A stretch of 64,000 nucleotides of DNA. Origin: Morchella semilibera. Its lineage: Eukaryota > Ascomycota > Pezizomycetes > Pezizales > Morchellaceae. The notes below the pieces were generated by a model, which searched no databases, was not told the DNA's origin, and saw nothing but the letters and a program-made list of their open reading frames with translations. The stretch covers positions 1,424,111 to 1,488,110 of the forward strand of contig WBVU01000010.1 of assembly GCA_009192285.1 (NCBI GenBank), read 5' to 3'. The translations under genes were made by a program, and so were the position numbers. Below, one piece after another: positions 1 through 62,421 of the stretch (the stretch's first letter is position 1; each line of letters begins with the position of its first letter).

Positions 1-3000
1 GTCCTGGTGTTCTATTCTTTTCGGAGCGTTCGATGATACTATGTACAGTATTAGTATTAGTTTATTTTATTCTCTCCTTTGTCACCATTGTTTGGTTCTG
101 GGAAGCCCAGCATTCGGTTTATTTTGTGATAATGTTTCTGCGTTTCCAAATGGTGGGCAACACTATTGTCAATGTTTTGTATCTACACAGTACGGCACAG
201 AAAGGCATAGTGGTCGCATGTTGCGGGTTGCGCAGGGTACCTTAAAAATATCAGACTACATGTAGTAGCATAGAATTCTTGAGTAATTTAGTACCATAGT
301 TGTCACTCTAAAGTTTAGGTTGCATGTATAGTGGCGGACACTCAAAACCGACCCTTAGTTAAGTTGTTCTAGAAGCTATGGGGAAGTGGTTTTTTAATTA
401 TGTCGAAATCCCTTCTGTAGGGCTGTTGGGGGTAGGTAACAGAACTATTTTACAGAAGGACTTTCTTCCTGGACAAGTGTTGTGGTGTTGAAAGTCAGTG
501 GTTGAAGGATAGTTTGATGGTCGGTTCTGTGTGTCCGCCACTGTACCTGTTGTGAGGCCCCTTTACTTTCCCAGAAACCAATACTTTACATATAATCAAC
601 TAGCCGCCAGGTGCCGCAACAAGTTCAAATTACGACCTATCAGCCGTTCCATCCCTAGCCATATCGCGGCAGGTATCAGTTACTGATCCGCTTCCATCTT
701 CCTTTTCTTTGATCTTTAGATAGGTTTTCGCTAACATGTATATCTAGAAAATGCGCTTTCTATGCTTTCTATCAAGTCCTGAACTCGAGTCCTACAACCC
801 AACGCTTATAGTTATAGGCTTGTTGTGGAACCTTCTGTTTGTCGTCGTAGGTAGGTATTATGGGCCAGCTCTATTCCACCAGCATCACCTAGAGTCTGAC
901 AGCTTTTAGTATGCACTCTCGTCTTGATACTCGGCTCCGTTACAGTCTACTATCTTGAAGATCATGAACCATTGGGTATGGAAGTGCTGTAGGACCCCCC
1001 CCCGGGGGGTTAGAGGGAGGACCAGAGGTATATCACGGCTTTACTAAGGTTTTTGGTATAAACGCACATGCTGCTAAGGACTTTGACTAAAAGAGTTACG
1101 CATGTTGGTATGTTGATGTCTGGGGTTTCCCTTGTGCCACTGTTTGATGCCAACGATGTTTGAGAAGATAGTTCAAGGCAGTATACTGCGGTATAGCATA
1201 CTAGAGAGTTATTCTGTAATACCTATTTAGTATCGGGCGAACCTGCATTGAGAAGCGTGCCATGACATGAGGGTTCACGTGGTACATAGGGGTAGTATGC
1301 ACGGGGGTGTCTCGGAGGCATGCCATAGCTTATATAGGTAGTGAGTGCTAGGGTTTTAAAAAGCCATGCGCGCATAACAACCTCCATCAAGTCAATAATA
1401 AAGATGGTTGAGGACGCTTGTTTAGCATAGACGACCCCCGGGCCACCTCACTCGGACAGTCAATCATGATTGGTTGAATAGAGGAACTGAAGTCACTTGA
1501 AACGTTGATCTTTCCTTTTCTACGTTAACTGTCCGAGTGAGGGGGATGTCCGAATGGCCCTGGAGGTCGTCTATATCAACGACTTATCGTGTTGTAATAT
1601 TGGCTGCCTCCGGGCGTAGCCAGCCAAAGTGTCTAGGACTACGTGTATTTGTCCGGTAACCACATATGTCACTGTTTTATATAAGTACATGTATATAAGA
1701 TATCTACATGTAATCTTGTACATACTGTAGTCAGTTATGTCAAGTCTCGTACTGTCCAGTCCTCTCTCCAGTCGATTTGTAAAATATAGATCTAGCAGGG
1801 GCATAAGTGATAATCTAGGTAGATGGTAGGTTGGTTATTGGGTGTGGGTCTCCATTTCTGGACGCCTATAATTATGTGGGTGTTTCACCGTGCCATTAGG
1901 TAACCTTAGACTCAGGGGTAGGAGGCCAAGATACCGAGTGATACGCTATGACCTGATTTTTATTGTAATAGCTGGTGCCTACATGTACATAGTTAAAATC
2001 CCTATGTATCTAAGATATACAGGAAACAAATAAATTTCGGTGCGAAGTGCAATATGCAGGTACCTGTCTGCGCCCGCATAGTAGCTCCGCGGAAGAAATC
2101 CTGAGACATAGGGCTGAATATCTATCCTAATTGACCTTGGGTACTCTTTGAGTACATGCGTGCACTTAGAACAGTTAACAGTATAGCCCTGCGAACAATA
2201 GTGTAATCGGGGGGCTTTGGGGGGTTGGTTGTCAAAGAGGGGCCGTATTCTGGCCAATGCGGAATCATCGTGGGAATGATAGTGTAGATTGCCGCTCATC
2301 AATGAGCTCACCATTCCATCCCCTAATCCAGCCACTGTGGGCAAAAAAAAAAAAAAAAAAAGCCTTCCCCTTCTATTCTTCCATGGGCGCAGCTCTCGAT
2401 TAGATCTGCCTACTTAGGCACAGCTGCATGGCCTTGACGGACATGGATTATATATGCGTGACAGTGGCTGGATGGTGGGTTTATCCGCTTATTCATAATA
2501 GTAGGAGATAGTTGATATGGATGAACATGTGTTCCTTCTGCCTTCTGCTCACCCGGAGTATCAGAGGATAAGAATCTTCTGGATACCAAGTTTACGCGCC
2601 GACACTTAGAACCACACCGGCCGACCGGTCACCTTAACAGGTAAACGGGTTTGGATTACGGGACCCCTGGCCCTGGTAAATCCAGTTGTTCTGTTGCCCC
2701 TATAGAAATATTATGGGCAGGGCTTCACCAGGCTCCTTCAAGATAGAAATAGTTTGAGTATCTTGTAATTGTTGAAACTCCAGTGGATCGAAGATCGGCT
2801 TGCACTATTAACGAGAGATTTGATGAGCTGGTGGAGAGAGTTGTGTAACTAGTAGAATTTGTCAATCTACTTGCCAGTTAGCAATAGGTTCTTCGTGGTA
2901 AATTAGGCCTGGGAGTTCTACTCGGTTCTCCCTATTTCCTGCCTCAGTCTTTTTAGGATTGTTACGATCTGTTGCCTAGAAGCCATGTAATTAGCACAAT

Positions 3001-4176
3001 TATGCAAACAATGTAAGATTCGACAAAGCCCCCAGATGTGCCTTCAAGGGGAGATTGTCCTTTTTGTTTGGAAAAAGACTGGTAAGTTGATGTCACCTGA
3101 TGAGTCAATCAATAATTACATGTAGCTACTACATACATGTAAGTAGGTACTGGGGGGCCTTTCTGGCGTAGTACCTTCTCAATTAAGCGATTTTCCAGAA
3201 AGCCTTGGTGAAGTTTCTTCACCGGAGATTTCTCGTGTGTAACTGCTGCCTTGCATGTTTTGACCAGGTTCCTGGGGCTGGGACGTCGATGTGAATCTCT
3301 AACGTCAGTTCATCCGTCGGCTGCTTCCGAAACCTAGCCCCCCCCCCCCTTGTTTTGATATATGTAGATGCTACATGTACTTTTTTAGATGGTAGATGCG
3401 CTTATCTCTAGTCCAGGGAAATTGCTCATAAGTGCTCGAGGACTTATTGAGAAAGGTATATTTAAAGCGTTGTATTTTTAAATATGTAGTTGCAGTCTCG
3501 ATTCCGTTGCGTGCGAAGTATACCAGATATATATGCCTCATTAATTTTGTAGACTTGTTTTGTTTACATTGTATGTTGCACGATACCGATGCTCAACTAA
3601 GTGGCGAGTGAATAATGACCGTAGATATTGCGAGGGCATGGAAGGGTTAACTACGCAAAAATTTACAGTACCGTCTAAGCGAATATATGGGGTGGACTGA
3701 GGCAGTACCTACATGCAGTAACGCATCTTAATCGGAACCACCAGCACCAGCAACTTTTATGATCCCTGCACATTCCAGATCTTACAGAAAGATTGTTCAT
3801 CAGTTGATCACTCGGTGGCAAATATCTGACAAGTGGAAATTATATATGCAGGAACAAAGCATAAACTACATGTATCATTGGATTGGGTAATAAATGGACT
3901 GGGCATCAGAATACGAGTCAAAGACACTTTTTAATTTTTATATATAACAAAAGAACTAGACGATATTCCAGCAACAAAAGAAAATGGCGACAGCCCGGTA
4001 ATACTAGTAACACATGACCCCAAAATGCTACACCATAACCCACCACATAACCATTATCACCACCTAGATCTAGCATAAGCCTACTGCCCAAAACACCTTA
4101 TTTTAAGCCAGAAAAACAATCCCCCGAAAGCTCTCAAACCCGTAGCCACGACCCTATTTCTTGACACAGATATCCA
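1..4176. other. Gene-poor spacer, left end
   Basis: No open frame here looks like a protein: the longest (121 codons, minus strand, about 1979-2344) has no recognisable motif or intron pattern. The stretch holds eight copies of the TACATGTA octamer, a 14-bp inverted repeat at 1447-1541 and an A homopolymer at about 2343-2360. Base composition is mixed and close to AT-neutral. I see no RNA gene. Confidence 0.6.
1447..1541. repeat. Inverted repeat with 14-bp perfect arms
   Basis: The arm CTCACTCGGACAGT at 1447-1460 is matched by its exact reverse complement at 1528-1541, leaving a 67-nt loop. Both arms are followed outward by C- or G-rich sequence and then GGCC-containing sequence. It may be the end of a small inverted-repeat element or a fold-back. 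No target-site duplication is obvious. Confidence 0.7.
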
Positions 4177-4455: not shown

Positions 4456-4460
4456 AGTAA

Positions 4461-6827: not shown

Positions 6828-6863
6828 GAGGCATTTGTTGAAACCATGATATCCCGTAGTTGC
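6828..6863 (+). repeat. Direct repeat copy 1 (diverged)
   Basis: A 36-nt stretch around GCATTTGTTGAAACCA recurs in direct orientation at about 7234-7269, flanking the 38-bp fold-back. Most differences between the copies are C/T or A/G transitions, the pattern left by repeat-induced point mutation or 5-methylcytosine deamination in ascomycetes. The sample is too small to prove that. Confidence 0.6.
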
Positions 6864-7269: not shown

Positions 7270-8553
7270 CAGGAACAAGAACTAAAATCCATGCAACGCC
7301 TATACACCGGTGGTAAAATAATTCACCACCGTTGGAAAAATTACTTTCCATCAGTAATTTACCGCACCATATTCAGAAGGTTCGAATTCTCGGTTTTAAT
7401 ACTACAAAAACCTCACAAACAGTATAAAAGCTGAATTTCAGTCTTATGCCAATGCATGCAGTGCAGTACTTGTAGGTATATCGATTCGGATATGAACCCA
7501 CCACAGTGCTATTGGCTAAAGAAAGGCGGCCTATGTGCATATATTTGAAAAAAAAAAACATATACATACTAGTCGCATCCGTCTCAATAGTATCCATATG
7601 ATACCAGTATGTATCAAGATAAAATTCTTAACTGTTAGGTCATAAATAAAAAAATCTCAATATTGAAGCTATGTAAACTTTACATAGATTATTATATAGG
7701 CCCTATAATATTCTAAATCCTGGGTCGGGCACGGCTCTGTGTAGTCGGGCTGAACCGTTGCACTGTTTTTTTTGTGCGCATTGTGAAATTGAATCACAAT
7801 CTCGAGCTATTTGCTCTGAAGACTGGTGACATAGTCTTTGACCTGGCTGGATAACCGTAATCCTAAATTTTACTATGCATGGTGTCTGTACGTACGTACG
7901 TGTAGCCAAACTTAATCGGTAAACATCCAGCAAATTTTTTTAAACCATTTAATTTAGAGGCACGAGGGTTAGTATTAAGAGATCACCACACGTAGTCTTG
8001 CAGCTTAATATGCCTAAATATGAGAAACTGAGTCATTGGGAAAGAGACTCTTTGAAGAACACCAGGTTCAAACTAGTTCATACCGAAACAAGAGAAACAA
8101 CCCCCACCGTGAGGATTTTATCATAGGCGATAAGGCGTGGGTCCATATTTCATGTGCCCAGGTACTTGTCACACCTAAGTACATGTAACTATACCGTAGG
8201 TACATGTGCGTAGGTACATGAGTTACAGGGGGATTCGTAGTCATATGTTACATGTAGTGTTGAGTGTCACACCTGCGCCATCTTAATTACTTGCATAATG
8301 TGTTTCTTCGGCGTAGATAGATACTGTAAACATGCTATATAAAAAAAATTTACACGAATGATTCACAATGTGTTTTCATGATCATCAAAAATTTCAGAGT
8401 AATGACTCGCAGAAAACTTCGAGTGATTCCTCGTGAGCGATCAACGGTTGCGGCTCAGTGTCCCACCATCAGCGCGTATCCGAGCCCAATCTCCCAAAGG
8501 AAAACGTCCCCTCAACCCACTATCAGAACAGACCTTCACAGGAACCCCCCACG

Positions 8554-9356: not shown

Positions 9357-10772
9357 ACAAGCAATAAAAAGTATTGAATATTTTAGGTTTTTGAGTTGTA
9401 AAACAGTATATATTGTGGGAAACGGACAAAGAATCCATAGAAAGGTATCTGGTTGGGGATATGATACTCCATATATATAGGATAATCGTAATATCTCCCG
9501 CTACGGGTACGATCGATGCTTAGGGCTTCGACCGGGGTGGTGGGTGAATAACACCGCGTTATATATATACTAGGAGAGACGCCGTAGCTTTAGCTTTATT
9601 TTGATGGAGGTAGTCGGGAATCCCCACGAGCATGGGTAATCTCAGACCGATAATGTGGTTTCTAGATCCAAAATGTAACTTCTGGGCTTAAGAGAACGGA
9701 AGATACAAACCCAGAGGCATGAAGCCCAATAGCAAATAATGGAGGAAGCTATCTAATAGTAGGGGTAACACCGGGAGGTTCGGTAATGATCAATCTTGAA
9801 GAGTCTTCATGATCGATCGTCAACGACTGCCAGTAGGCTCCCTGTAATTCTGAAGCCTTGAGATAATACCAACCCTCAAGCTTCATATTATGTCTAAATT
9901 CCAGACGAATGGCTTAAAACAAACCATCTCGAGTACCGTGATATAATAACAAACCAACCTTTTTGATTAATTAAAAATTGATTCACCACTTATCACTCTG
10001 TTATGAATAAGCTTGTTTCATTAGGATCTTTCCCTCAATAATGTAGTTAGTGCACTCCCCGGAGGGAGGAAAACTATAATCGCCTGAAGCTACCAAGTTG
10101 ATCATTGGCCTTTGAGATTGGCTGGCACGCGAGCTCCGTGGTAGGTAGGAAAACATGCTGCTGTACCCAAGCAAGCAATCGACCCCACACTGCTTCAGCT
10201 AATGCACACGTGTGGCGGTATCGTCCGGTGCGATCCAGATCCTCAAGTTTATTGTCCACGCACATTACAGATTAAGCATCCCCTACATGTAGCACCATTC
10301 CCGAAAATGAAAATAAACTGATACCTTACCTTCTAAACGTGCCTAAGAAGATAGGAAATATGTAAATTGTAGCCCATTGAATACCTTGTATAATATGTAT
10401 ATGTGAACGTCCCTCCCAGATGAAAACAGAAACAGAGATAAAGGGGATAAGATAAAACAAGCCAGCAAAAACATTCCTACAATAAAGTTGAAAAGGACTC
10501 GCAGAAAAATAAAAAATAAAAAGTAAAAAGTAAAAATAAACATACCGCCATATTTGTCGCCGTGAAATAAAAAAGCGAACAAGCGCCAAGAATTTATATA
10601 AAAAAATGAAAGAAAGCAGATAAAGACAACCCTAGGCATAAAACAACCTTCTTTTGTTCGTAAGTCCCATTTTTTTTTTTCATGAACACAATGCCAAAAT
10701 CTTTTGCGCAAGACTCCCCACTCAACACCGCCATGTACAATAAACCGAAAATAAGTAAAATGCAAAACTGAA
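9357..10772. other. Spacer between CSL4 and the phosphatase gene
   Basis: The two flanking genes converge here. The stretch should hold both 3' UTRs. Open frames on the minus strand just beyond the phosphatase stop (10326-10798) are AT-rich, Phe/Tyr-heavy readings without motifs. One TACATGTA copy lies at 10284. Nothing else stands out. Confidence 0.55.
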
Positions 10773-13524: not shown

Positions 13525-16500
13525 TTGCGGAGTGCTTGGTTGCCCAATATCCGTTTCGATCTTTTTTTGATCCAGCTGGGTAAATTTTACTTTTAATCTA
13601 TGGGAAGGATTGAATGTAATTCTAGCGAGATACTTGCGAAGGATATTTGCAAGAGAGAGGGGGGGGGGGGTGCCTTCCTTTTAGGGGGGAGAGGAAGATA
13701 TGACGACAGATGGCGGCGAAGGCGGGCAGGGCAGGGCAGGATGACGGCGGAAGGCAGGACGTGCGTTAGGTAGTGTCAGAGAACCCTTAAGTTGTGCCTA
13801 ATGCGCGCTCATGATCACGGGATATCACAGGGAATTTGAAATAGAAGGGGAAGAAAGAAGTTGGGAGTGGCGTTTGGGATCCGGTTTTTCTGACCGGCTT
13901 CCAGAAAATTGATTATGTGGCGCAACAATCTCAGGAACAATTGTTTCCCTTGCTTTCCAAATTTCCCTTTCCCGTCCCTTTCGATCTCGTTCGTATGATA
14001 TCCTTCGAGATTCCTTTTTACCGCTCTCACGCCGATAGATTGCCAGATAGTCCTCCCAACGTCACCAGTGCACAAGTTTTCTATTAATTTTTCTTGTGGA
14101 AAGAATCAATTGCGTGACGTCGTCGTCGTCGCCCAATTCCCCCCTGTTCTGCTTATCGTTATTCTCCTTTTCCTTCTCCTTACTTCCCTTTTCTTTCTCT
14201 GTAGGTGAGATATACACCAGTTGGGTTGGGAATGGCAGCAGAGGGACAATGGCGACGGCGGTGGAGGTCAAGGATAGGTAAATGGGGCCTTGAATGATAC
14301 CTAAATCTAGGTACAGGCGGCGGATAAGGGCCCACGTAGTGGATAAGAGAGGTGGGGGGGGAGGGGGGGGGAGGGGTGAAGGGAGGCGGCCGAGAAAAGG
14401 GTCCTATTTCAACTATTTCAACAATGGGCGGGCAGGAAGGGGATTTTGAGGGTTCTATTAAAGGTTGATCAACCACCTCTACTGGCAACCTCAGTGGAGA
14501 GGGGATCAAGTACAGGGCAGGTCAAGTAGGGCCTAGATCGTTTCCCTTTTTAATTTTGTTCCTTTATCCCTGGCCCTGCCCTGTACGAGTACATGTATCT
14601 TGGTGGAGTTTTCTTCTTTTTCATTATATTTTATTCTTGTGGTGGTGTGGAGCGGGGAATTACCGCCGTGGAGGAGGGAGTGGATGGATGCAGGGAGCCA
14701 AGCAAGTAGCCAAGCAGGGCAGCATGGGAGTGCAGGATTCTTCTAAACCACCCAGCAAATTGCCACTCCCTTAAAACTACTAGGTATGAAGGGACAACGA
14801 CAGGTACCACCTACAGCCCTAGGTACATGTACTCACACTCGCATGTCAAGACAAAAAAAAAAAACAGGCCCAGGATGCGCAGTGTATTCTACATGGTACG
14901 CTAAGTCAGGCAGGTAGCGAGCAGACATTGCCTTACTCTCTAAGCACGTGCATACTCTACATCCTCAGCAGACGCCTCTGCTTAATTTAAATTGCTTGCT
15001 TTAATTGTATGCTATTATGCTGTGCCTGTATGTTGTGCTCTACCAACATGCTAGCATCTCTACCTACAATCATTAACATCTACCCAAGAGAAAGTCTCTT
15101 CTCTAGAAGGTTGGAGCAAGGAACAAGCCTTATCTCAACCCTATTTACCTCGATTCCTATCCAATTTCCGACTTTTTACCTACTTAACCTCTCTACTTTG
15201 CAGTTTTTACCTCGAGCTCACTAAGGCCTATATATGATCCTACCTATGATATACCTCTACATTCGATTTATCATCTATGGCTCTGCTGTTGTTCTTGGCA
15301 AACACGCCCGCAAGCCATGCTTGAAAAAAAAAAAAAAATGTCCGCTGTGCCCAGTCGCGTGGCTGTTGCCGGTCGGTGAGAGCTAAAACAGTCCACCGAT
15401 GACGCTATTCGGGTCTCAGTCGCTCAAAGTTATCGTAAAAGTAAGACCTGTGAACCCCCTGAACCCCAGGTTCATCGTCATCGTGTTACGGAACACACAC
15501 AAGTCAATCTTAAACGCAAATAGTTACATTACCTGGAATCAGGAAACGGTCGATCGGAACATCTATCTAACCGTAGATACTCTTTGGGGAGAAACAGCTC
15601 CCCATGGTTGGAATTCTCTAGTAATTCCTCTTTTTAGAATCAAAATAGAAACATGACTCCCTGGCAGACGTGTCTCGAAATAAGGCGACAAGGAAGAGGA
15701 CAACTCCTTCCCCTTTTTAGGCCTGGGCCACTTCTTACAAGGTTTCCAAGAAGCCTCCCAAAGTCCAGGCCAACGGGATCGTCACTGCGACCACGCATTT
15801 TACGACAAAAAGCAAAAAAAATGTTCTGCTTGGCTTGGAATAACCGAAGATCCAAGCCGGAAAGGGTTCCAAAAAACCATCTGCCAAGACACATGCCATG
15901 CCAGTTCAACAACCACCTTCAACAATTTTATGGGGATCATTGATATTACTGTGGATGGCATTGTTAACTTCTCGACGTTCCTATGATCATTGTTTTTGGA
16001 AATCCTGCATGCTCTTTGCTTACATATACTTCAAGGAGTAAAAAAGCAAACATGTTTTATTACTTTGACATCATCCGCCACCGTCATTGTCAAGGACAAC
16101 GCCTGTCAAATACAGCTATGTAGTAAGCTAAATGGCACCAACATTCTGATGGTGGTTTGGCTCTCGTAATCTAATTGTTGAATTCGAGATGTGCGAGGAT
16201 TAAGAGTAATTCTAGGCATATAGCTAGCGCCATACGACTGCAATGGCGGAACCTGAAACTGACTGCTGCAATGGCAGACGATTCCGACTGGACATAGACC
16301 TTCAGATCTCCCCGCCTTGCCCGCACCTGGCTTCCGGTTGCGAGAACCAAATTAAATCATGAATGCGGCTCCTATCAGGTGAACAATCAGACACATTCCG
16401 TTGCATTTTCCCGCACCATGGGAAAGTATGACCAGAGCGTTTCGCATGAGTCATGGAGAGCAAAAAAAAACTACACCGCCCTAAACCAAGTGCTAGCCAA

Positions 16501-19430
16501 GGACGGGTTTTCATCGACGATCAACAAGATGTTTAAAACCTAAGTATCAATTTGAACTAAGGGTAATTGTTTGGATCGAAATTCCCTATAAGTATCAGGG
16601 GCAAAGCCCTAGCACGACCAGCTGCCGGAAAAAAATTATACTCTATGATTTCAAGTTAACTAGACTAGTGAGCACTTTACTTTAGGTGCATATATTAAAT
16701 ACCAGCCAATTAGAAGAGCGCATTTGATGGTTTGATCATGGGTTATCACTCGGTGCATTTTGACCCTAGAGGAAAATGATTGCTTAGTGCTCCATATGTT
16801 AAAAAGAATATCAGTGACACCGGAATATCTTTTAGAACTTAATGTCTAAACATTAACGGTCTTTCGATATTATATGTGCCTTGAAATCAGTATATGGAAG
16901 CGGGGATTTCATTCTTCGCCTTGCTAAAGGGCCCGCACTCCAACGTGCAGCGCATTATTTTCCCGTGTTTCTACTGGCTCAGTCGTTGAATGCTGCTTTA
17001 TCCTCATGTGCAGTAAGCCGAAGAAAGCTTGTTCTTTCTATAAAAAGAAGATGCCCGGTTATTAACTCATTCAAAGTAGACATAAACTCATTACCCTTCC
17101 GAACCCAACTTGGTCCGCATACCATTTAAATCAGGTGCACCATGCAAGATTTGCTTATATTGCTTATATGCAGACCCAGTTGTGTTCGGGAACGTTATGG
17201 AGTAACAAGTATGTATGTTTCCTGCAGTTCCAGGCGATACAGACACCCCAAAACCAGGGTATCGTGGGTATCATGGGTATCATTGAATTCATTCTTATTA
17301 TTAAATCAACTCAGTGTCAAAAGTCTGATAATCACAATAGATAACCCCACTAATTTATAGAAAGTCTTATAGATGACACACGGACCCTAGGGTGTGGATT
17401 TTGTTCCCAAACATTCGTTTTGCGCTTAGATCGACCATATACATACAAGGCTAAAGCTACAAGTTGTATCACAATAATCCTCGCAGGTGTTACAATATTT
17501 GCATAACTATATCGCAACTAAGGCTTGGGGTTACACTTTAGTGAGCAGCTCAGAGGATCCAAATGCGTCAGACGGTGAAATGGGCCTACAGAGAGAGCCT
17601 TTGAGGCCGCATCCAGAGGCCCCCCCCCGTGATACTGCCCGTATCATAGAACCACAGTTACATACATAAGTGTTTGGTGGGTGCACAAATATAAATATAT
17701 GCAGGCACCGAGATATATTACAGGGCAAGACCATGGTCTAATAAATCCAAGGGTAGGCATCCTGGAATTGAACGCGAGGGGTCTTGCGCGTGACAGTTCG
17801 AAGATCAGGGTCTGAACACACTCGCTACATGTGGGTGAGGGACGGAGGATTCCAATACATACAGTAGAGTTACACTCTTACATGTTGCGGGGAAGTGAAG
17901 CTCGGGGGACAAAAAGGAACAGAAGAAAGGAAGAACTGAACATACCGAGCGGCGTCCGCGACTGCCGCATGGTGACGCGATATGAAACTGATAAGAAAAG
18001 AAGGTTTTATTTTTCTGAGGGTAGAGTAGGTACAGTACATGTATGTAAGTACATGTAGCTAGCAAACTAGCGGGCCCCAAAGTAGTTGCAAGCCTGTCGG
18101 AATGTTCATCCGGATATATCTGGTGGGGATTTATTTTTATTTCAATTTTTAACTCTGATAGGTAGCACTCTTTTTTTTCTTCTTTTCCCTCCCTGGTCAT
18201 TCAAATCGGTTGCATGTTACTTGGGCTGAACATGAGGACGACGGAGGGGGCTGGAGGGCTATGTACATGTAGGTACTTTCTTTCTTTCGTTCCCGCCCCG
18301 CCTTTCTCACTCTCGCCCTCTCTACTGCGGACCGTGCCGGGTAGAACTAGACAGCTGTATCCCGCGTGCGGGGGGTTACGGGTACCAACCGGTGTCTGAT
18401 ATTGGTGGTCTGGACAACTGGCATTACATGACGACGACGACAGCAACTAATACGCCGACGCAAAAGAAATTAAAAGAATCACCCTCCCAGTTAGCCCGCC
18501 TCTCGATCAATGCTTTATCATACCGAAAAAAAAAAAAAAAACAGCTTCTTTCTCCACCTATCGTTTCTTTTGATTTACATTATAATCACTAAAGGCTAGA
18601 AACGACAACCCCTCCGACAAATGCTTCATCCATGATCAATTAAAAGGGTAAATGCCAGTGCAGTTCCCAGATACTTATCGCTGATCATGCTTGACGAAAT
18701 CGCAATTATCAAAGGCCGCCAGAAAACCATGGAAGAAGAAGAAAAAAAGGTCAATATACGAATGCGCACGCACAATTACATGTGCCTACTACTATTAAGG
18801 GCAAATAAGGCCGTCAGATAAGTAAATACCTACATCTAAGTGTATGGTTTGCATCGAGGCTACGCTGCCTACATACTTTCTCTACTATACACGTGGAGAT
18901 TGTTTGCATAAGGGTACATGTAGCTAGAGTACAGCTAGAGACAGACACATACAGCTTGTCCCACCAGTATGAACCAGTCGGCCAACACCTAACGACGTTG
19001 CACTGCCTAAGAAACAAAAAACAAAAAGTCTTCAAACGAAACGTGTATCCAGAGGATTAAACGGCCACCGTTCTTTTCCCCCCCCCCCAAACAACAAGTA
19101 CAATCGACAACGGTAAAAGATTCGCAATCAGCACTTTATTCAGCTTCGATCCTTCCTGTCGCCATCGGCGCTCCCTCTAGCTGTATGTACGCACAATAGA
19201 GGGACGCCTTAATGCGCACCTAAGATGCGATAACTGATAGTTCTATCCAGCGCTGGCTTCGCGGGCTATAAGATTAAGACTAGAATAAGATAGGAGGGAC
19301 CCCTTTGTTGATTCCAAAGACATTCCTTATTACTAGCTGTGGATTCAGGGCCGAGGACAAAGAAAATAATACTTTATATATAATAACACCCCTCAGGTAT
19401 ACTCTAAAGTCCAAAAAAAAGAAAAGAAAA
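13525..19430. other. Long gene-poor spacer
   Basis: The first kilobase is the phosphatase promoter/5' UTR zone, with G-rich tracts at 13656-13670 and 14351-14373 that could form quadruplexes. Beyond that I see no frame with recognisable motifs or intron structure. It holds A/T homopolymers, six TACATGTA octamers (14590, 14824, 18036, 18050, 18264, 18915) and scattered C/T-rich runs. No tRNA or rRNA was recognised by eye. Confidence 0.5.
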
Positions 19431-19640: not shown

Positions 19641-20935
19641 AGTGTCTTCTCAGTAGGTGGATATACTTGATCTGATATCGGAGCTTGCGACTAACAGGGC
19701 GAGAAGGCAGCGCCTTGGATTGTAAATAATGATAGACAAAGAAGATATACCTACGGCGCCTCTTTGATCGGGGCTTTTCTTTGCTTGACGCTAAGGATGG
19801 GGTCGTCCTGATGATACAGAGCGGGGTTTGGCCGTGAGCCAAGTCAAAAAAAACCCGAGTGACTGTCTATGAGCCTGGCTGGCTGGCTGGCTGGCTGGAG
19901 TGACCCGGGGTTTCCGGTTTGGGATTACAGTTGTAGATGTACATTGTACTTAGCTATAGATAAGGGCGCTACGGGTGTCCTTTTCCTTTTCCTTCCTTTT
20001 TTTTGACGAAATCTTGCATGCTGTACTTTAGAGTATAATAATATGACGAGTATGGTATTATGCTATCTTCGATGTGATCGTAAGGGGATAGTAGAGCGAT
20101 GATTTATTATCGATGTGCTTCTTCAATATTTTTTTCCCTCCTCCAATTGGTGGCTAAGATAATCAGTTAAGACTTTGGTTGGTAGAATCGGCTAATGATT
20201 ATACATAGATGTAGATAAGGGCATTATACTTTGCCCCCTCTTTCTTTAGCATAAGATCCTAGGCGTAATAAATCATAGTAAGGTGAGATATATTGCAGTA
20301 TGTGGTCTACGGAGGAGTGGAATGGTAATCGAAGTAGAAACATCATGACATGTGTAAATACCTTGCCATAGTCAGATCACACACATGCTGCACTGCATTG
20401 CAGATCTTTGACCGTTGAACTGTGAGTGGCAAATTCAAAAGCCAAAAGGTAGCAAATCGATCGAAAAATAAATGCCTGTAGATATTGCTAGCTGGATAAT
20501 TAAAGGCCGCCGGTTTGGAATTGTAGATAATTTGTTGGTATGTAATAGTTTCCTTGGTCTGCTGCTGCACGAATCAAAAAAAAATCCTGCTTATGCCGTG
20601 CATTAATTTAAATATTCTAATCGTGGAGAAAATAGCAGGTTAAGTACATGTATGTACACATAACCTACCCTACAGGTGCCGGCGGATATCCCATCCAGAT
20701 TATGATGTACCTGTGTTGATCAGAGAAAGGTACCTACGTTGGCTGCGCTTAGCCAACCATCTACATAGTATAGATTTTGTAGCATCCCGATGCTCGAGTC
20801 AACGCTCGTGGGAAGTTGATCGGACTTAAAGGCTATAGCAAATTAAGGAAGGTACGCACGTACGTAAGTCGATTAAAATCGAGGATCTACACGGCGGCGT
20901 ATGCACGTAAATAATTGGTATATATACTCATGCAT

Positions 20936-21338: not shown

Positions 21339-21341
<3 letters not shown>

Positions 21342-21379
<38 letters not shown>

Positions 21380-26446: not shown

Positions 26447-28629
26447 GTTTTGTGTGGGATATGTGGGGGATATAATAACACCTTTATGATATCATGCCTA
26501 GCCTAAAAATGGCACGAAAAACAGAAAAACAAAATTATCTTTACTTCCCTCAGGTCTAGCTGCTCTCGTGATGTCCACTTGTGTGCGTATGTTTGTGTTC
26601 TAGGGTTCGTTATAGTTCGGGCACCACTGAAGACCAGACTCTGGTTAGCTAGTAAACTTGACTATCTAGTCTTTCCTCCCCAAAACACAAAGATTGAGAC
26701 CTCCTTCCAAAAACTCTGGGCACCCAAATCTGTACACCACTCGGCCGCCGTCCTACCAAACACAGCCCAACCATCACCTACTGCTTCATCTACCTACCAC
26801 TAGAGCCGCCAGTCACCCAACGCACAGACCCGTAGCTATTTCGCATTAAGGAGCTGGTCACAAATACCTCAGGCTTCCACGAATTAGCGCCAAATCCAAT
26901 CCCGAAACGCTACTACCAGGCACGACAGGATTCTAAACACGTAGATCATACCAGACAGAAGCATGATTACACCACACAATATGCTGTGCTATATACCATG
27001 CACATTAGGTATAATAGGGCACAATATCGCTGTGTTAAGCTTCCCCATGTTTGAAGCAGGGTGGTGGTGGTGGTTTAAGGTTTTGGTGTCTATCTTGTTC
27101 AATGTAGCTTATGCGGGTCCCTGGATGATTTCCCACTTAACCACCACGATATATGTTTGACGGGAGCCGTTCCCCGAGAGAGAGAAAAACACATAATACA
27201 TGCAGTAGACCGGCTTCTCTATGGGCGAGCGGGTGCATCCATTCAGCCACCCCTTACATACATGTATCCAGCAAGTCGAGTCCTGGGGGAGGGGGGCGTA
27301 TGTGTGGTTGCACTACATGTAGGTTGGAACCTAAATAAAATAGCTGGTCAGATGCCCGGGGGCGTGTCTCCCTGATGAGGGATTTGGAGATGGGCTTTTA
27401 ACTAACATTGTGGAGGATATATACATGTAAGTATGTAGCCAATGGTCCCTAACGCCGGCCATCGGCCGTGACATCCTCTGGATCTTCATCTAGCCGGCCA
27501 CGTTATGATAATCCCACGATGTGACGTCCCATAGCTCTGGTATATGGTGATGATGGGTTGATTCTGCCCATGACGGGGCTGGGTGGTGATCAGTTTATTG
27601 TTATCGATATCGACGAGGGGTCGATATGGTCCCGCTAACAACCCTAACCCAATGTCCTCTTCTATAGTACTGGCCAGTTGAACAAGTTCCCTACAGAAGG
27701 TGGCACATAACAAGTATGTATATACGAAGACTGAAATCCATGAGGTTACATGTATATACAAATAGGTTGCGCACATGCACCACATGAATACAAGTACCTA
27801 CTTATGAGGAACACTTGGACACATGTATATATGTTCTGCCCCACTGGTTAAATCTCCCGGTACACACTAAATAGCTACTTTCATTAGCGTGCAGATCTTC
27901 TGGTATCGGGGAGTCGCTGTTGGAAAAGCTATCAATATGCAAGCCCTCCTATACTCTCCCCCAAAACAAACCGACCGACCCCATCTGCGTTCTTAAGTAG
28001 GGACAGGGCTACATGGAGTGCACCTACACTCCCAAGCCAGCCATGGCCGAACTGGGCTCGTTCTGAAGTACTGGTATGGATCCTGGGTAGGTCAGGTCAG
28101 CCCATTGGCGGGATAAAACTGAACGGGAAATCCGGTTCGTTAATTAGAACACGTTATATGTATTGTATATGTACCCACTGGCCCAAGGGCGAAGCAACTC
28201 GCCTACTAACAATTAGCGTGCCTATACATACAAGTACATACATCTATCTCCACACGATGAAGATATATAGACTGGCTACCAACATCTTAAAGACCAAGGC
28301 CCAGTACCCAGAATAACCCCCCCAATCCTGCATATCCGTCATGTTCCGTTAATTTCAACCAGAATCACCAAAACTCACTCGATTCCCGCCCCACGCAACC
28401 ACCCCACCCAATGCCCCACACATTGCAATCTACGGGCGTACATACTTCGGCATCGCACTTATGCACCGAATCTCAGATATCCCCCGCCTCGCGAGCGACG
28501 CAGTGCTAGACTTAGCTCAGAAGTATCTACATTCATTCTCGCTGCCCAGCCATGCCATGCGTTGGCTAAACACACCGTCAACTAATCAGCTCCGAGGAGA
28601 CCCCACTCGTTGATGAATGCCCCCCCCCC

Positions 28630-42252: not shown

Positions 42253-44607
42253 AGTGTTTAATTTAGAGGATGAACTTGGAATTGAGGGAGAGGGTATTGC
42301 GGCTGGTTGAATAACGGGGGGGAAGGAGGAAGGCGACTGGCGACAACGATGACAACGAGCGAATTAAGTTGTGAAAGAGAGGAGGAGGGAGGAGGAGGTA
42401 ACTGGGTGATGGCGAGTACGAGTATAAGCAGTGAGAGTGAGTAGCTGTGGACAGCAGGGGGAGTAGTCGAGGATAGAGGGGAGAAGAGAGGAAGAGGAGT
42501 TGGGGGAGGGTTTCGGGAAGGGCCAGATATATAGGGACCAGTTGTTGCGGGAAGGGTTGTACCTAACACGATAGCTCTTTATAGCTCAGGTAGGATGTGG
42601 TGGTGGTGGGAGCAGTTGCAGCTGGTACATTCAAAGGGTAGCTTGACCTGGAGCTAGCGTTTCCGGAGAATCAGTCAGAGTCCTTCCTTTCAGTCACAGG
42701 AGCCTTACCTGGGGGGGGGGGGGGGGTGGTGTTATCATCATCATCACCACCACCACCACCGAACCAAGCTGTATCATACATTTAATGCTTACTTCATACA
42801 TCGCTCACTCTTACACCTTACACTCTTACAATCAATCATACTTTGTTTCCCCCCAAATCACCTGTAACTGTAAATAGTAATTCGCATTCATCTCTGTCTC
42901 TCTCTCCCCCACACCCCACCACCACCACAGCCATCCACGGTACAGCCATCTTTTTGTAAACATTCTGTTTTATTTATTTGGACATCGTACAATTACATTG
43001 CTCTGTGGTACTTAGGTAGTAGTAGTAGTACATACATGTACCTAGTAGACCCTCAGTTCCATTGCGTTTGGGGGAGGGGGGGCCGGGTAGTTCGTTACTC
43101 CCTTGCGCGCTCCCTTTGTCTCTCGCTCGCTCGCTCGCTCGCTCGTTCATTCGTTCGTTTGCAACAGCCTCAGCGAGCCAGTTAGCAAAGCAAATGACGC
43201 CTAGAGACAGCACTTGGCTGGCTGAGTTGCTCCCATCTATTACCGTGGATACCCAGCCTTGCCTACCACAGCTACAATAACAACAACCCAGTGCTCACTG
43301 CTAGAGTAGAGAGTAACTATGTACATATTAGATACATGTCACTAACATTAATCCCACCATACAAACACTCTACTCACCCCCCCTCTTCCCAGTATACTAG
43401 AGTAGCAGAGTCCCCATGCACTTCTCACAGCAAAGTAAAAGTAAAGTAGTTGTGCACGTCCCCCTACCTTCTCCCCCTTCCACCTAACCGAGGAGGAGCC
43501 GAGAGAGAGAGTGAGTGAGAGAGAGCTATCTCGTCTCGTTCAATCCAATCTCCCACCACCACCACCCTCCCCACCCCCCCTAAACCAACAAACGGAAAAA
43601 ATAGGTTTAGTTTAAGGGGGGGGCGGGGATGGGGATGGAGCGAGCGGCCGAAGAAACCGTGGTTATCAATCCACGCCTTTCTTTTCTACATGTATATCCC
43701 TGAGTGAGTGTTTTTCGTTATCACAGTCTGAGGTTACGCTACATATTACAGAAACCTCAACCCCAACCTTAGGTTAGGTTAGAAGGGAATGGAAGGAAGC
43801 GGTATCGCCCGTGCCTCTTGAGGGCTGATAAACACCCGTCGTCTCCGGGCTAGAGGAGATAGGTAGTCCGAATCCATATGTGGTTGTTCTATATGGAGGT
43901 ATAAGTATACCAGGGGGTGTAGGATCGAGGGGGGCGCGTAGATAACTCTTTCTACTACATGTACTACTGCTGCTACTACTATGTACTCTAAAGTAGATTA
44001 GATAGATAGATGAATGTACATGTATGTATGTACTCAGGTACAACAATAGTATCTCTATCAAAACTTACCTCCGTACTTACTCCGGCTGGATAGTAGATAC
44101 GAGACTTGGAATGCACATCCCCCTCCCCCCCCCCAAAAAAAAAAAAACCTGGGACTCGCTCTTCAGATGCTTATCGGCCGGTGGCTGTCGAACGTTTCAC
44201 GCCCGGTGATAGTGGTGGAAACAAACAATCCGTGCCTGCCTACATGTAGGTATCTACACTATGTGCATGTATGTACCCCTAATCTACATCTACATGGAGC
44301 AGGTGACGTAGAACCCAAAGAAACTAAATTAACCGAGCCTCACTGTGGCTCATCCAGGGTTTGTGCCTGTCGGGTACACGCGCATCATCCACAATGTGGA
44401 CCATCAAATTGCAAAGCAGCCAGTCATAGAGTGAGCCTGCGCCTTGTTTTATGAAATAACCATCCAGTCACAGCTCTCATTATTGACTCCCCCCCCCCCA
44501 TAGTTTACTGTTCCCCCCCCAGTGCATGAACAATCACCACCACCACTGGAATACATACCATGACTCTCTCTCTGTCTTAGTAGTCATCGCCGTCACCGGC
44601 GTCACCG
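42253..44607. other. Spacer, simple-sequence rich
   Basis: No supported gene. It contains the 5' region of the acidic-protein gene, a 16-17-G run near 42710-42726, GCTC tandem units at 43121-43146, and five TACATGTA octamers (43033, 43687, 43956, 44017, 44241). Poly-C runs lie near 44120 and 44490-44520. Confidence 0.55.
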
Positions 44608-47799: not shown

Positions 47800-49499
47800 A
47801 TGGAAAAGCTCACGCCCGTTGCCGACGTCCTCGCCCCCAGCTTCCTCCCCGGCCACACCCCGCCGCAAAAGATCTCGCCAAAGCCATATGTCTATCTCAA
47901 GCTCGTGCGGCTGCGGCCCGTGGCGGGCGTGGACGTTAGCTTCCGCATGAGGCTGTCGGACGGCGTGGGGTATGTGCATGGTGAGTAACGTAGCGTCGGA
48001 GATTTCAATTTGTTGCTTGCAATTGGAGGGGGGTCTTGTTCTTTGGGGGAGGAGGAGGGGTAAACATGCAGCCAGCCTACTATCACTATCACTATCACTA
48101 TCAGGTCAGACCAGAAGAATATGTAGAATAGCTACACAGCATCTGCCCACCTCAAGCCATAAAGTAGATAACACACATTACACAAGACCTTTATGCACAC
48201 ACAAACACATACACAAAAAAAAAGACGCTGTTACGCTTGCTAACCAAGCCATGTATATATGCGTGCATGCAGCCTACTTCGGCAGCACCGCGTTCGACCG
48301 CTTCGTCCACGACGGGTCCATCAGGGTCGGACAGGTCCTCGAGATCCGCACATACAAGATTGGCATGCACGGCGGCGACCGCGGACACCCCTTTGTTGGC
48401 CTGGTGTGGATATATCCTGTCCCGCTTGTGGTTGCTGTTGCTGGTTTGGATGTTGGTGGTGGTGGTGGGGCTGTCAATGATCGGGCAGATACGGTCAATG
48501 ATAATGCTGCTGCCGACGGTGTTGACGGCCAGGATAGGGCCACCACCACCACCAACAACGACTTACAAGCTGTAGACCCGCCCCCAGAGCCAGAAGCCCC
48601 TGTGCACGGGGGCAGAAAGATATCTCCGTCTGTAGCCATAGCTATAGGGGATATCGGTGGGAACGGGCCCGGGGCTACCGTCAACTCACCACCACCACAG
48701 CCACAACCACAAATACCACAACTATCACAACTACCACAACTACCACAACTACCACAACCTGCCCTCCAAAGAGCACCGCCCCCCGTGCTGCCTGTTCAAA
48801 ATATATGGCTCCTGAACCGCTCCAGCCCAAAGCTGACAGACGAAATGCTCAAGATGAACCGCACAATGCTCAACAACCTCTCCAACAAGAACATGCGCAA
48901 CGCCAGTATGCCTCCCCCCCTCACTCCCCTCCCCCCCTCTAGCTAGTGCAACTATACATGTAGGTACATGTAGTTTTTATATATATATATTATTATTTTG
49001 GGATAGTGAAAAACCACTCACACCCCTACAGACTTCCTTGCCGTAGTCCTGGACCGCCGCCGCCGTCCGGACAGTCACACAATCGTAAGCCCCCCATCCC
49101 CTCTTCCCACACCAACACCCCATCCTAACCGTGCCACAACAGCCCAAGCAAGACTGGTACCTCTGGGACGAGTCGTCCTCCACGCGCAAAACGATCCTCA
49201 GCGTGTGGGGCGACCTGTGCGCCGAGTTCCAGCCCCTCCCGGGCACCGTCGTGGCCCTCTGGAACGTCCAGATCAACACACGCTACGAAGACAACCCTGC
49301 CTCGGCGCGGTTGCTGCGCCTGCCACGGAGCGGCCTGGGCCATCTGAACGCGTACAGGAATAAGCACCCGAAGGGCATGCTGGACCCGCGGGACGTGCAG
49401 GGGTACCGCGAGCTGAGGGAGGCGTGGGGGAGGCGGGGGCTGGAGGTGAGGGGGAGGGGGGAGGGGGAGGGGGAGGGGGAGGGGGAGGCGGTGCTGTGA
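47800..49499 (+). CDS. Short RPA1-like two-OB-fold protein
   Basis: Exons 47800-47980, 48273-48905, 49032-49084 and 49143-49499 join in frame to give 407 aa. Residues 1-110 resemble the N-terminal OB domain of the replication protein A large subunit: YVYLKLVRLRPV, FRMRLSDGVGYVHGAYFGS, then GSIRVGQVLEIRTYKI and FVGLVWIYPV. A long low-complexity linker (about 110-235; Gly/Ala/Asn, then Pro/Gln with QLPQLPQ units) follows. The C-terminal part (about 237-375) looks like a second OB fold: NFLAVVLDRRRR, WYLWDESSSTRKTILSVWG, FQPLPGTVVALWNVQIN. The C-terminal zinc-finger OB of true RPA1 is absent and the tail is Gly/Glu repeats. It could be an RPA1 paralogue or another ssDNA/telomere OB protein. The similarity is by eye. 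Confidence 0.72.
49446..49493 (+). repeat. GGGGGA hexamer repeat encoding Gly-Glu tail
   Basis: Tandem GGGGGA units at the 3' end of the RPA1-like coding region encode RGEGEGEGEGE. The G-rich strand is the coding strand, so the mRNA could also form a quadruplex. Confidence 0.85.
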
Positions 49500-50367
49500 C
49501 GGACGTCTGTAGCGTAAGGCATCTCTTTAATTTCATTCGTTTGTAATTCATTGGGTGGTGTTTATTATGTGGTCGGCGGGCAGCCGGCGTATGTTTTGCG
49601 GTTTTAATCATTTAGCTACATGTAGCTACATGTAGTTCTTGTTATAGTAAAAAAGAAAAAATGGACATCCTGAGCATTATATATATCTACTCATCTTCCC
49701 GGCTAACATGTCTAGCTGCTTCATACATTGCGGGGGGGGGAACGGTGTTTTGGTCGTGTCACCAGATATCACTCGTATACTTTTTTCCCCCTCTTCGTAA
49801 TCGTAACCTGTCCGCAACTGGATGACATAGAGAAAATGGCCTTGTATATGGATATGGGATTAAGGACTAGGTGGATACGCAGAGCGTTTGAGGAAGCCTT
49901 GATTGGCCTAGCCTAGGTGTATATACGTTAACCGGAAAGGATGGCCACAATAAAAAAGTAGATATGTAAGAGCTCTACTCAAAGTGGACATACCCTGAGA
50001 GATTCCAAATACATAGAGGAGGTTGACCGTTCGATAGCGTCGTTGGAGTGGTCGAGTGATATTTTGTGACCAAAAAACTCTACTTTTAATTAAGGCGCTA
50101 TTGTAGTTTACTTCTCCTGATATTCGAGGAATAAGTAGTCTTTCAAAATTAAAGCATGTATAAAAATGCCTGATTCCATACATATATTGGAAGTGGGGCA
50201 ATTAAACCTTAGTAACTCCTGCTTTTCCATTTTTAACTAAAAATACAAAAAACGTTTCAAATCGCCGATTCACGGTTAATTTAGACAGGAATATGCGGTC
50301 CAGATGTCATGTTTTCTCGAACCCATAATCTGACCTTAATGTAACCGTAGGGAAGGGGAAATTAGTC
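49500..50367. other. Convergent spacer RPA1-like / derlin
   Basis: Two genes end towards each other here. Two back-to-back TACATGTA octamers (49617, 49627) lie about 120 bases after the RPA1-like stop. Short frames at 49728-50201 have no motifs. Confidence 0.55.
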
Positions 50368-51520: not shown

Positions 51521-54500
51521 GGTTGCTCTCTTTCTATTCTCCTGGGAATGGATGGTTAGAGGTAGTCGGCTCACATACATGTAGCCTTCACGATCTTGGA
51601 GTTCAAGGTGTCATTAAGGTGGTCAGATCGCGTGTGGATTACTCAGCTGCTACAGTTCTTCAGTCACATGATAAGGAGGAGCGTGGGCATGTAAGCAATT
51701 GCATAAAGCAAACAAAATATGCAAATTCCTTTACATAAATGAGTGCGTACTCTTTGGGCTGACTCTATTTCAAGTTGTTATAGATTGCAATGAGAATCAT
51801 ACTCTAGAAGCCTACATTGTAGCTACTCTAGCTAGCTAGAATCCTTTGCTCTATTTACAGATTCTGATACCATTCCCCCAATAAAGCGTAATGATCAGCA
51901 CTTGCCTTTGCAAAATACCATCGTATTTCTTTTGACCGTTGTCCACTCTGCAATATAGGAGATGCATGTGGGGGTGGCCGTGGTAAACGGTCTTTTCTAA
52001 GGCAGAAATATGCCAAGCCTGATCTTGAGCCCTTCCGGGAGCATCTTGCGGGGCATACGGGAGTGCGATTAATTAATTTAGAGGCAAAGTTAACATCGTA
52101 GAACCCAGAAAAATTAATTATAAGAATCAGCCTATTTCCGTGACCAATGAAAATATGTTACACGAGCTTCCAAGGGGCATGAGGAATTATCTCAGAATGC
52201 CTACCTCATTTAGAAATTCAAGATCTCCGAGAGGAGCTAGGGGGAAGCTAGAAGGGGATGGACGGCGATGTTCCTAGCTAGATACTCATATGTAGTTAAT
52301 AATCATGATATTGTGAGCTGACATGTCAGTGGGAAAGTAGAGGCATGATCCGGCTTCTAGAAAGTGATGGTATTGTCGGCCAATCATTGTCAAGCTAGAC
52401 CGTGTACTGCCCCTTAAGCACAGATTAGCTTGTCCCCTGAGAAAACAATGAATTTCACGGATAACAACTCCGCCTTTTGTAATTTATGTTGAAATGTATT
52501 CGAGTAACTATGCGATCCCCTCTGCTTCGCAGTCTTGCCCGCCTAAAGGCGCCCAAATATGTACCTACTGATCTATCATGGTCTAGGACAGTCACTGGGA
52601 ACTAGGAGGCTTTGTGTCCGTTGGTAGAATAATTATAACTTATCGCGGTCTCAACATCTCAAACATGGATATATCGATTGGTAGAGTGTGTGCATGTAAT
52701 CAGGTCTCTCTATACCGTTAGAAGAACACCGAGGCATAGAAGATTCGAGGGTTTTTCGAGAACTATCAGGCAGATGTTTCTCAACTTTACCAATAGTTAA
52801 ACCTGATAGGGCAACTACGCCAAGCACATCGGAGGCTGAAAATCCCACAGATATTCCTGTGCAGCGAGTGCACAGTGCACGGTGCGTGACAAGCTCTCAA
52901 CGGCAAGCGCTCTGGCTGGGTCTTACTCGGGGGGTTGAGGTAGGAAAAGGAAAGAAAGAAGCGAAATGAAAAAACGTCCGTTTAGGACAAAGACATATGT
53001 TGCTGGTCATCCTATGCGCTAGAGGTAGAGGTAGTGATAAGTTACAACCGCGCGGTTGCTCGAGTCCATGAATTTTGTTATGGTGATAATTCTGCATACG
53101 CGAGGGGAAGAAAGATTTCCGTTGTTTGCCCTTGGATCACTAGATAGACTGTTTACATATCTCACTCAATCGGATGTCGACTCGGACACGGGCACGGGCA
53201 CATTCCCCGCTTGCGACATCTTTGGTCCGGTAATTACTCTAAATTATCTGTGGCAGCGAGGCGAATGTTGTCGATCTGATCGAGGGACCACATCTTCGTT
53301 AATTGGTTTCTAGGCAAACACATGTAAAGTAGGCATTTGATTCAGCGTGTGATTGATCGATAGGGGTGAGGTCTGGCACATTGAGATTTGAGAAATCCAT
53401 GCCTACCATATATTCTTACATAGCGACAGTTGAGTACCATGGACTGGGCTGTGGGCGACGACCTCTTCCACACACCCACCCAACGTTTTTTTTTTTTTTT
53501 CCTCCTTCCTTTCGAGAATGTGCGACATCTGGGTTCCACAGGGGTGGAAGCATTGGAGAAGGGAGATTTTTTTTTGACATGCATCTCGGTCTGCTTTGCT
53601 TTTCCAGAGAGAGAGAGAGGGGGGGGGAGAGAGAGAACCTAGAAAGTAATGCCATGGGTTGCTGATATTTTTTTCGTTTTTTTCCTCTTTCATTTCTTTT
53701 TTTCACTGTTTTCCCCTGCTTGTCGTAGAAGGAGTAAGAGAGATTCCGCACGGACACTCCGCCAGTGTCTGCAAGATGAGTTTTTTTGATACACATTTGC
53801 TGAACATCGGACTTTGGCTTTTCAAACCTCGCTCTTGAACACGACTACAGGAAAGTACCTACCATCTTGAGCTGCATACATGGCACTTGGGACTGGTACT
53901 GGATCAGACAGTAGAAGGCGATCGCAGGCTTGGTGTCCTCAGGCGGTAGGCGATATGGCTTTCGAGTCTCGTCGTAAAATACCTGGTGATTAGGGATTTA
54001 TGTGGTAGGAACGGCGGGACGAACAAGGATTGAAAAGAAGCAGAAAGCTGCATGGACTCACTCTTAGAGCAACTAATCGAGTGAGGAAGGGAATAAGAAG
54101 AGAACTTCACCAGATCTGCGTCAAAAGTTCCCATTTGTAAACTAGCCAGCCCAACCCAACCCACTTTTTTTTTGGGGGGGGGGGGCTTCATCAGCATCCC
54201 TTCCCCCATCCATCATCGATCAATCCATCCCATACCTACTACTTGTACCGTATGTACTTACATGTACCATTCCCAATTGCCTCCCCTATCCCATGATAAT
54301 CATCATCCAACCGTTCATCCAGCGCCGCCGCCGTTTGACCCGTTTATTTTGTAGTAGGTAGTAGTAAATAAGACTCCACATGGCGCCAACTACACGCATT
54401 CGTTGCAATTACCTTATTGCTCAAGTTTTGCGCCTTAACATTCTTTGGGCAATAGAAAATAATAATGGCAATCCAAATGATAATGAGATACCATGTGAGG

Positions 54501-61505: not shown

Positions 61506-62421
61506 TTATAAATATGGTATGTATTTAGTGCTATGTGCTGGATGCTCTGATTAGAGAAACTTTGATTGTTATTGATTCTAGTTGTTGGCATTCTTTGTAC
61601 AGCTTACTGGGTTTTCCTTTTCTATCTGTCTTTCGTATTTTTTATTCCCAATTTTCCTCTCTAACAAACAGTCCACGCTACGATAGCCCCATTAATAGCC
61701 CATATACGTGCCATAGCCTACATACGTGCCCTCAGGTTTGCTTCATAGTGAAGCAGAAGCGCGAATAGATTCCTACATCTAGTAAAGGCACATGAATTTC
61801 AGTGCGGCCTTGGTATAGCCCTGTAAATAATAACGCCAAGACCTGAGAAGTATTTGGCTGAGCGAGCGTGATAAGATAGGATACAATAAGTCCTCATACC
61901 CGAAACCATTGGCAGTAGAAAAAATTGCTCATACCAAACAGCACCTCTTTCGTTTTGCAGATCTTACTTTCCGCGGAAACATTCCCATCGCGAGTTGTTT
62001 CCGGACCCATAAGACTTGATGGGGTATAACACCCAACACCAAAAAAAAAAAAAAAAGGGATCCGGATTCCGTCGATGTGCTAGATGGTATCAGGAAATCA
62101 CTCCAAAGGTACAACAATCAGGCCGCTCGGATAGCGCAGCTACATGTAGTTTTATGAATTTTGCTAAAGCCTATCCCATTAAGCCTACATGCACCTACTT
62201 ACAAATCCACTAAGATGGACCCCGCTGGGTTTTGATCCTCTGTTTTTCTTTTTCGTCCCTCCAACGGTCACAACCGCGGGCCCCCATACCATCTTAGGAA
62301 AAGCTTTTCTGCACTTCACCCCACCAAAGAGCCTCACGCTCTCATGTATGATACCTATGAACCCACAAAGTTAGATGAGGGGAAACCGCCTGCACCAAGA
62401 GAGACAAGAAGTATATTTGAA
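61506..62421. other. Spacer LSC2 to HGH1
   Basis: The first part is the LSC2 3' UTR, T-rich. Farther on are an A-run near 62040-62056 and one TACATGTA copy at 62141. No gene. Confidence 0.55.

Follow-up and report, generated by a model that had tools for sequence, protein, structure and literature searches.

A 16-base dyad built around the octamer TACATGTA is iterated genome-wide in the non-coding DNA of Morchella semilibera

Introduction

The cyanobacterial palindrome HIP1 (GCGATCGC) occurs at about 1,000–2,000 copies per Mb, is associated with DNA methyltransferases and is the subject of a repair model of site-making (PMC4390886). In the oomycete Phytophthora, the octamer TACATGTA is known as motif-1 or M93. 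It was reported upstream of 12,070 genes in three species and 4,150 times in the promoters of P. infestans (PMC3520976, PMC3597505). The same octamer was recognised in a stretch of 64,000 nucleotides of the ascomycete Morchella semilibera (assembly GCA_009192285.1, contig WBVU01000010.1, positions 1,424,111 to 1,488,110), referred to below as the window. In this fungus, TACATGTA forms the centre of a dyad of 16 bases, TANV-TACATGTA-BNTA, which is longer than a preliminary description of the window had recognised.

Proteins reading TACATGTA or its core have been described. A site for Irx (an Iroquois TALE homeodomain protein) was proposed for TACATGTA in Phytophthora (PMC3520976), and ACATGT is the site of the BEN-domain proteins NAC1 and NAC2 (PMC10206803). 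Searches of open-licence full texts with the octamer and its longer forms returned these Phytophthora and BEN-domain matches and no fungal report. Searches of the same literature on iterated palindromes and palindromic octamers in fungi showed no report of TACATGTA among the matches listed, and TACCTAGG-type words gave no match in open-licence literature.

Materials and Methods

Genome-wide searches covered 56.76 Mb in 23 contigs, and ATGTACAT, which has the letters of TACATGTA reversed, was used as control. Contigs C9/C10, C12/C13 and C21/C22 of the assembly form near-identical pairs differing by small indels, which perhaps represent two nuclei or an assembly duplicate. Since some contigs are near-duplicates, the genome counts of the word and of the control are both somewhat inflated.

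Detailed counts were made on a sample of 294 kb, in which the window was joined by 23 further stretches, each 10 kb long (24 stretches in all). Stretches L019 and L022 were left out as duplicates of L018 and L021, to which they are identical along 9,957 and 9,977 bases, respectively. Stretches L001 to L008 had been chosen for carrying TACATGTA and do not enter the counts. Coding segments were called with a homemade hidden Markov model (HMM) trained on the long open reading frames (ORFs) of the same sample, by which short exons are missed. The sample was split in this way into 81.5 kb of coding and 212.5 kb of non-coding DNA. The null expectation for the window was obtained from 100 shuffles preserving dinucleotides.

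Results

The count of 37 copies given in the preliminary description is exact, and all the positions listed there were recovered (Table 1). Shuffled windows contained 0.95 copies on average and 4 at most, which bears out the excess over chance; among the octamers of the window, TACATGTA is surpassed by two homopolymer runs only (37 vs 0.93, z 37). The excess extends to the whole genome, where 22,206 copies of TACATGTA stand against 3,723 of ATGTACAT, a count which is not near expectation. In the sample, 151 copies were found where 4.3 (order-1) or 6.3 (order-2) are expected. The density amounts to 391 per Mb in the genome and 710 per Mb in the sampled non-coding DNA. The resemblance to HIP1 that had been proposed is therefore real as far as the genome-wide excess of a palindromic octamer is concerned, whereas the density remains below the range of HIP1. 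Furthermore, the most over-represented neighbour words of HIP1 overlap HIP1 itself (PMC4390886).

None of the 37 copies in the window and none of the 151 in the sample falls in a called coding segment, in agreement with the confinement to non-coding DNA claimed earlier. With the homemade gene calls used here, chance alone expects just 0.42–0.59 copies in the coding part of the sample, so that this zero indicates that the enrichment is missing there and not that the word is excluded. In this respect TACATGTA differs from HIP1. The copies at 48955 and 48965, described as lying in an intron of an RPA1-like gene, are indeed located in a 231-base gap between coding segments of the same strand. The name RPA1 was not confirmed, as ORFs 47569–47985, 47951–48943 and 49089–49496 gave no Pfam match at E 0.01. 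The window gave no match in Rfam or tRNA scans.

The composition of the flanks revealed the longer dyad. Outward from the octamer, T reaches 60% at position +3 and A 55% at +4 in the sample sites, while no position beyond +4 is informative; at +1, A is rare (29 of 298 arms). Of 302 arms, 128 carry TA at +3/+4; the corresponding share is about 9% farther out, and 13% when any TA of the non-coding DNA is taken as the starting point. Each half-site extends as TGTABNTA. The flanking TA occurs independently in the two arms, with both arms carrying it at 27 sites, one at 74 and none at 50. Genome-wide, TANNTACATGTANNTA was counted 3,317 times vs 251 for its reversed control. The half-sites abut: TACA-N0-TGTA was found 151 times, and spacers of 1, 2 and 3 bases gave 7, 6 and 7 occurrences. 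A peak at spacer 4 (37 occurrences) consists mostly of TACATACATGTA and its mirror. Many copies had also been described as extended to longer palindromes. In the window, CTACATGTAG occurs eight times and GTACATGTAC once (the latter count being read by eye), and in the sample the two outermost bases complement each other at 42 of 151 sites (28%) vs 28.3% expected from composition. This pair being at chance level, there is no extra palindromy at 10 bases and that description had to be abandoned.

A microsatellite-like seed had been considered as the origin of the octamer, which would then have arisen secondarily from TA-step microsatellites or from repeat families. At steps of 4 bases TA is more frequent than expected (ratio 1.76 at lag 4), and TAC at lag 4 reaches 2.87-fold when the sites are masked. 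This milder excess contrasts with the zero spacer, which stands alone (151 vs 6–7 at spacers 1–3) and therefore makes such a seed unlikely as main source; other TACNNGTA words reach 2–25 vs 302 for TACATGTA in the same two-strand count. Repeat families contribute little. Of about 164 fetched sites, three are in DNA for which the fetched sequence contains a homologue at another place, all of them in L010. Together with the lack of flank signal past +4, this shows that the copies do not belong to one repeat family. L010 holds a dispersed inverted-repeat family (commonest word TACATGCA), 21 of whose 94 typed copies carry TACATGTA, but this family supplies tens of copies, not thousands. The comparison of TA with TACATGTA in repeat copies yielded no site inside 113 within-sample repeat alignments. 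As main source, a microsatellite or repeat by-product is largely refuted and we consider it very improbable. Repeat-induced point mutation (RIP) was also rejected as a source, the CpA/TpA indices of the sampled non-coding DNA being unremarkable (TpA/ApT 0.85–1.01).

The footprint of a mobile element had been proposed as well. Excision of a TA-flanked Tc1/mariner element with the ends CA...TG would leave TA-CA-TG-TA, a six-base scar whose letters match the octamer; TA-CA-TG-TA is a Tc1 footprint, called rare in C. elegans (PMC3520976). Tc1-like transposases (69 DDE_3 matches) and elements of the form TA-CAG...CTG-TA are present in the genome, and the widespread, non-coding location of the sites is compatible with footprints. 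However, the usual somatic Tc1 scar is of the +4 type (78%; PMC13148408). The +4 words TACATA/TATGTA are not the main word here, since they are enriched merely 2.9-fold (429 vs 148), compared with 151 vs 4 for TACATGTA, and TACAGCTGTA was seen once.

The flanks of two abundant resident families were further compared with those of the octamer. The CAGTCG family has 195 ends genome-wide (at most two mismatches) vs 57 in the reversed control. It shares the low A at +1 (0.11 in 75 typed ends), but TA at +3/+4 was found in 10 of these 75 ends, which equals background. The CAGCGG family has 85 ends vs 0 in the control, and the outward flank of 72 ends is CATG-like, with C at 93% at +1, then A 61%, T 49% and G 35%. 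As C occupies +1 in only 79 of 298 arms at TACATGTA, the sites are not scars of this family. The letters fit a Tc1 scar, but the differing flanks argue against footprints of both families. Of the 72 CAGCGG ends, 11 are located exactly at TACATG|TA, a context that applies to 0.6% of all TAs, which is far lower, and to 12.5% of TGTAs (about 2-fold, p 0.012); the CAGCGG family tends to insert at TACATGTA. A single element in L036, representing a third, near single-copy family, displays TA at +3/+4 on both sides, which leaves room for another family. The query for its relatives gave 832 matches vs 441 in the control, mostly chance. Recognisable elements are few beside the 22,206 sites, and footprints as the origin of the octamer appear improbable. 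The CAGCGG family, with an element in L038 and the ends TA-CAGCGGTAGGTAA..., inserts at GTAC.

The pairs of copies 10–19 nucleotides apart mentioned in the preliminary description are real (Table 1). Clustering is also seen in the sample, where 26 neighbour gaps of 50 nucleotides or less were counted; placing the sites at random within non-coding DNA 500 times gave 7.6 such gaps on average and 15 at most. Stretches L009, L012 and L016 contain 0, 0 and 1 TACATGTA in 26.5 kb called non-coding, where about 19 are expected at the mean rate. Pfam analysis of ten ORFs from these site-poor stretches gave one sub-threshold match and no explanation for their poverty.

The octamer could be an ordinary promoter element of one transcription factor, as proposed for Phytophthora motif-1/M93, which is abundant upstream of genes and enriched in some sets of promoters induced at particular stages (PMC3520976, PMC3597505). 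With HMM calls, 5 sites were found in 20.1 kb of divergent spacers, 10 in 17.3 kb of convergent and 54 in 77.9 kb of tandem ones; with merged gene calls, the corresponding numbers were 17 in 33.0 kb, 10 in 16.6 kb and 40 in 58.4 kb. Divergent spacers are poorer under one gene definition and hardly so under the merged calls, and there is no sign of promoter focus. Sites are even depleted 0–300 bases upstream of genes, as judged from homemade gene calls. Lacking any upstream concentration, the promoter element was rejected as main explanation and is quite unlikely. The Phytophthora and Morchella words have in common an identical and very abundant octamer; the former is an oomycete promoter motif, whereas the latter is fungal, was counted genome-wide, is not focused on promoters and has TA arms in addition.

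One-letter variants of the octamer were counted in non-coding DNA against order-2 expectations. Transitions are clearly in excess (123 vs 45.7) and transversions less so (98 vs 81.1); among the latter, the change at the centre to TACTTGTA/TACAAGTA likewise exceeds expectation (26 vs 8–11). The transition-rich excess suggests a stock of decayed sites and is the chief reason to consider turnover or a process that makes sites. Such a HIP1-like process would create exact TACATGTA by biased repair, conversion or mutation, followed by neutral decay, and single copies would have no function. The variants resemble the substitutions in copies of the dispersed repeat, where eight unselected columns of the 94 typed copies contain 73 transitions and 8 transversions (or 40 and 8 once the C/T-polymorphic column is set aside). 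One-letter variants exceed expectation by about 94 and perfect sites by about 145; the ratio, about 0.65, is close to that predicted for sites created steadily and lost neutrally. Beyond 4 kb from called genes, sites are also common, with 17 in 9.4 kb and another 15 in 14.6 kb, and apart from the first 300 upstream bases they occur at ordinary frequency elsewhere. On the other hand, a 16-base dyad with half-site-linked TA exceeds what a site-making process needs, and the variant halo could also reflect the tolerance of a protein for transitions. The flanking TA of one-letter variants was found in 55 of 187 intact arms and 36 of 187 broken arms (p 0.03, a weak test). TA staying with the intact half is expected if the halves are read as units and counts against pure decay. 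To our knowledge, no enzyme or mark for such a process is known in this fungus, and we hold it to be a rather unlikely origin of the sites.

A second iterated motif, the bipartite and asymmetric TCAY-N5-ATCACTCG, was counted 6,041 times genome-wide vs 7 for its reversed control. The sample contains 36 copies, none of them in called coding DNA, with variable spacer letters and flanks. One-letter variants are nearly absent at most positions, and the motif may be more striking than TACATGTA. It is not explicable by microsatellites or footprints and was counted in favour of protein recognition.

Other features were encountered. Window positions 7272–7371 correspond to a degenerate copy of a family resembling miniature inverted-repeat transposable elements (GTCAAAAGTAATTTTACCAACGGTGG, 294 ends genome-wide), and positions 6986–7132 to an element of 147 bases whose inverted repeats are long (arms of up to 56) and which is related to part of L025. 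Telobox-like AACCCTAACCCT words occur inside contigs, with CCTAACCC found 32 times in the sample. The gene content is that of a fungus: a Fungal_trans domain was matched at E 2.7e-30, and a Zn_clus match remained below threshold.

Table 1. Positions of the iterated motifs in the window
Feature	Position	Strand	Remark	Basis
TACATGTA site	257..264			word count
TACATGTA site	1686..1693		paired with 1705	word count
TACATGTA site	1705..1712		paired with 1686	word count
TACATGTA site	1980..1987			word count
TACATGTA site	3117..3124		paired with 3134	word count
TACATGTA site	3134..3141		paired with 3117	word count
TACATGTA site	3372..3379			word count
TACATGTA site	3867..3874			word count
TACATGTA site	8180..8187			word count
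TACATGTA site	8249..8256			word count
TACATGTA site	10284..10291			word count
TACATGTA site	14590..14597			word count
TACATGTA site	14824..14831			word count
TACATGTA site	18036..18043		paired with 18050	word count
TACATGTA site	18050..18057		paired with 18036	word count
TACATGTA site	18264..18271			word count
TACATGTA site	18915..18922			word count
TACATGTA site	20645..20652			word count
TACATGTA site	27259..27266			word count
TACATGTA site	27314..27321			word count
TACATGTA site	27422..27429			word count
TACATGTA site	27747..27754			word count
TACATGTA site	36531..36538			word count
TACATGTA site	38385..38392			word count
TACATGTA site	38741..38748			word count
TACATGTA site	43033..43040			word count
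TACATGTA site	43687..43694			word count
TACATGTA site	43956..43963			word count
TACATGTA site	44017..44024			word count
TACATGTA site	44241..44248			word count
TACATGTA site	48955..48962		probable intron, paired with 48965	word count and coding gap
TACATGTA site	48965..48972		probable intron, paired with 48955	word count and coding gap
TACATGTA site	49617..49624		paired with 49627	word count
TACATGTA site	49627..49634		paired with 49617	word count
TACATGTA site	51576..51583			word count
TACATGTA site	54259..54266			word count
TACATGTA site	62141..62148			word count
TCAY-N5-ATCACTCG	1935, 8420, 16736, 26229, 31568, 32711, 39204, 49759, 50053			

Discussion

Enrichment, zero spacing, TA at +3/+4, restriction to the non-coding part of the sample and absence of promoter focus are observations. 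The explanation we favour, with a probability of roughly 40%, is that TACATGTA is the dyad site of a putative DNA-binding protein, dispersed in non-coding DNA, each copy being weakly constrained. The protein-binding site was among the possibilities raised at the outset and is the best remaining one. This reading is based on the strict zero spacing, the TA arms, the genome-wide enrichment and the flat flanks outside the 16 bases. A candidate sequence-specific and probably dimeric protein would recognise TANV-TACATGTA-BNTA. It would act across spacers and introns and not at promoters, possibly in an architectural, chromatin or boundary-type role. Weak selection may keep the excess amid steady gain and loss of single copies.

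Several observations weigh against recognition by a protein. No candidate protein is left. The recognition residue of Irx is Ala50. In the genome, one Homeobox_KN match was obtained, with the helix WFINARRR and Ile at the recognition position, so that the sole TALE homeobox gene found has Ile instead. An Irx-like TALE reader was consequently rejected, the helix pattern WF.NA(R/..) giving one match genome-wide, although genes whose helix is interrupted by an intron would escape this search. For a binding site under selection, about one copy per 2.6 kb is a very high number, and the density is uneven, from 0 to 20 sites per 10 kb (chi-square 99, 23 d.f.). Within 300 bases upstream of called genes there are 4 sites in 18.5 kb, a depletion (P 0.003). 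The variant excess consists mainly of transitions, a pattern that neutral decay would give. Finally, the arm test is weak and one of seven variants is reversed (TACGTGTA, 2 of 13 vs 5 of 13).

Overall, a 16-base dyad is present genome-wide in the non-coding DNA of this fungus. A protein site with turnover is put ahead of a HIP1-like process, which in turn is put ahead of the footprints of another family. A broader and more speculative view, which we consider unlikely as a whole, would see here a eukaryote counterpart of the bacterial iterated motifs. Non-coding DNA would be marked by at least two dense long words, the dyad and TCAY-N5-ATCACTCG, read by dedicated genome-organising proteins, with a Tc1-like family targeting the dyad.

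If a protein reads the sites, their spacing offers a scale for testing chromosome organisation outside promoters in a fungus. If a process writes them, M. semilibera would represent a eukaryotic case of the question raised by HIP1, namely how a genome comes to be filled with one exact word. The presence of the same octamer in the distant oomycetes makes convergence vs a shared cause directly testable. With its few variants, TCAY-N5-ATCACTCG also provides an internal contrast to TACATGTA, the former word being kept tightly and the latter loosely within the same genome.

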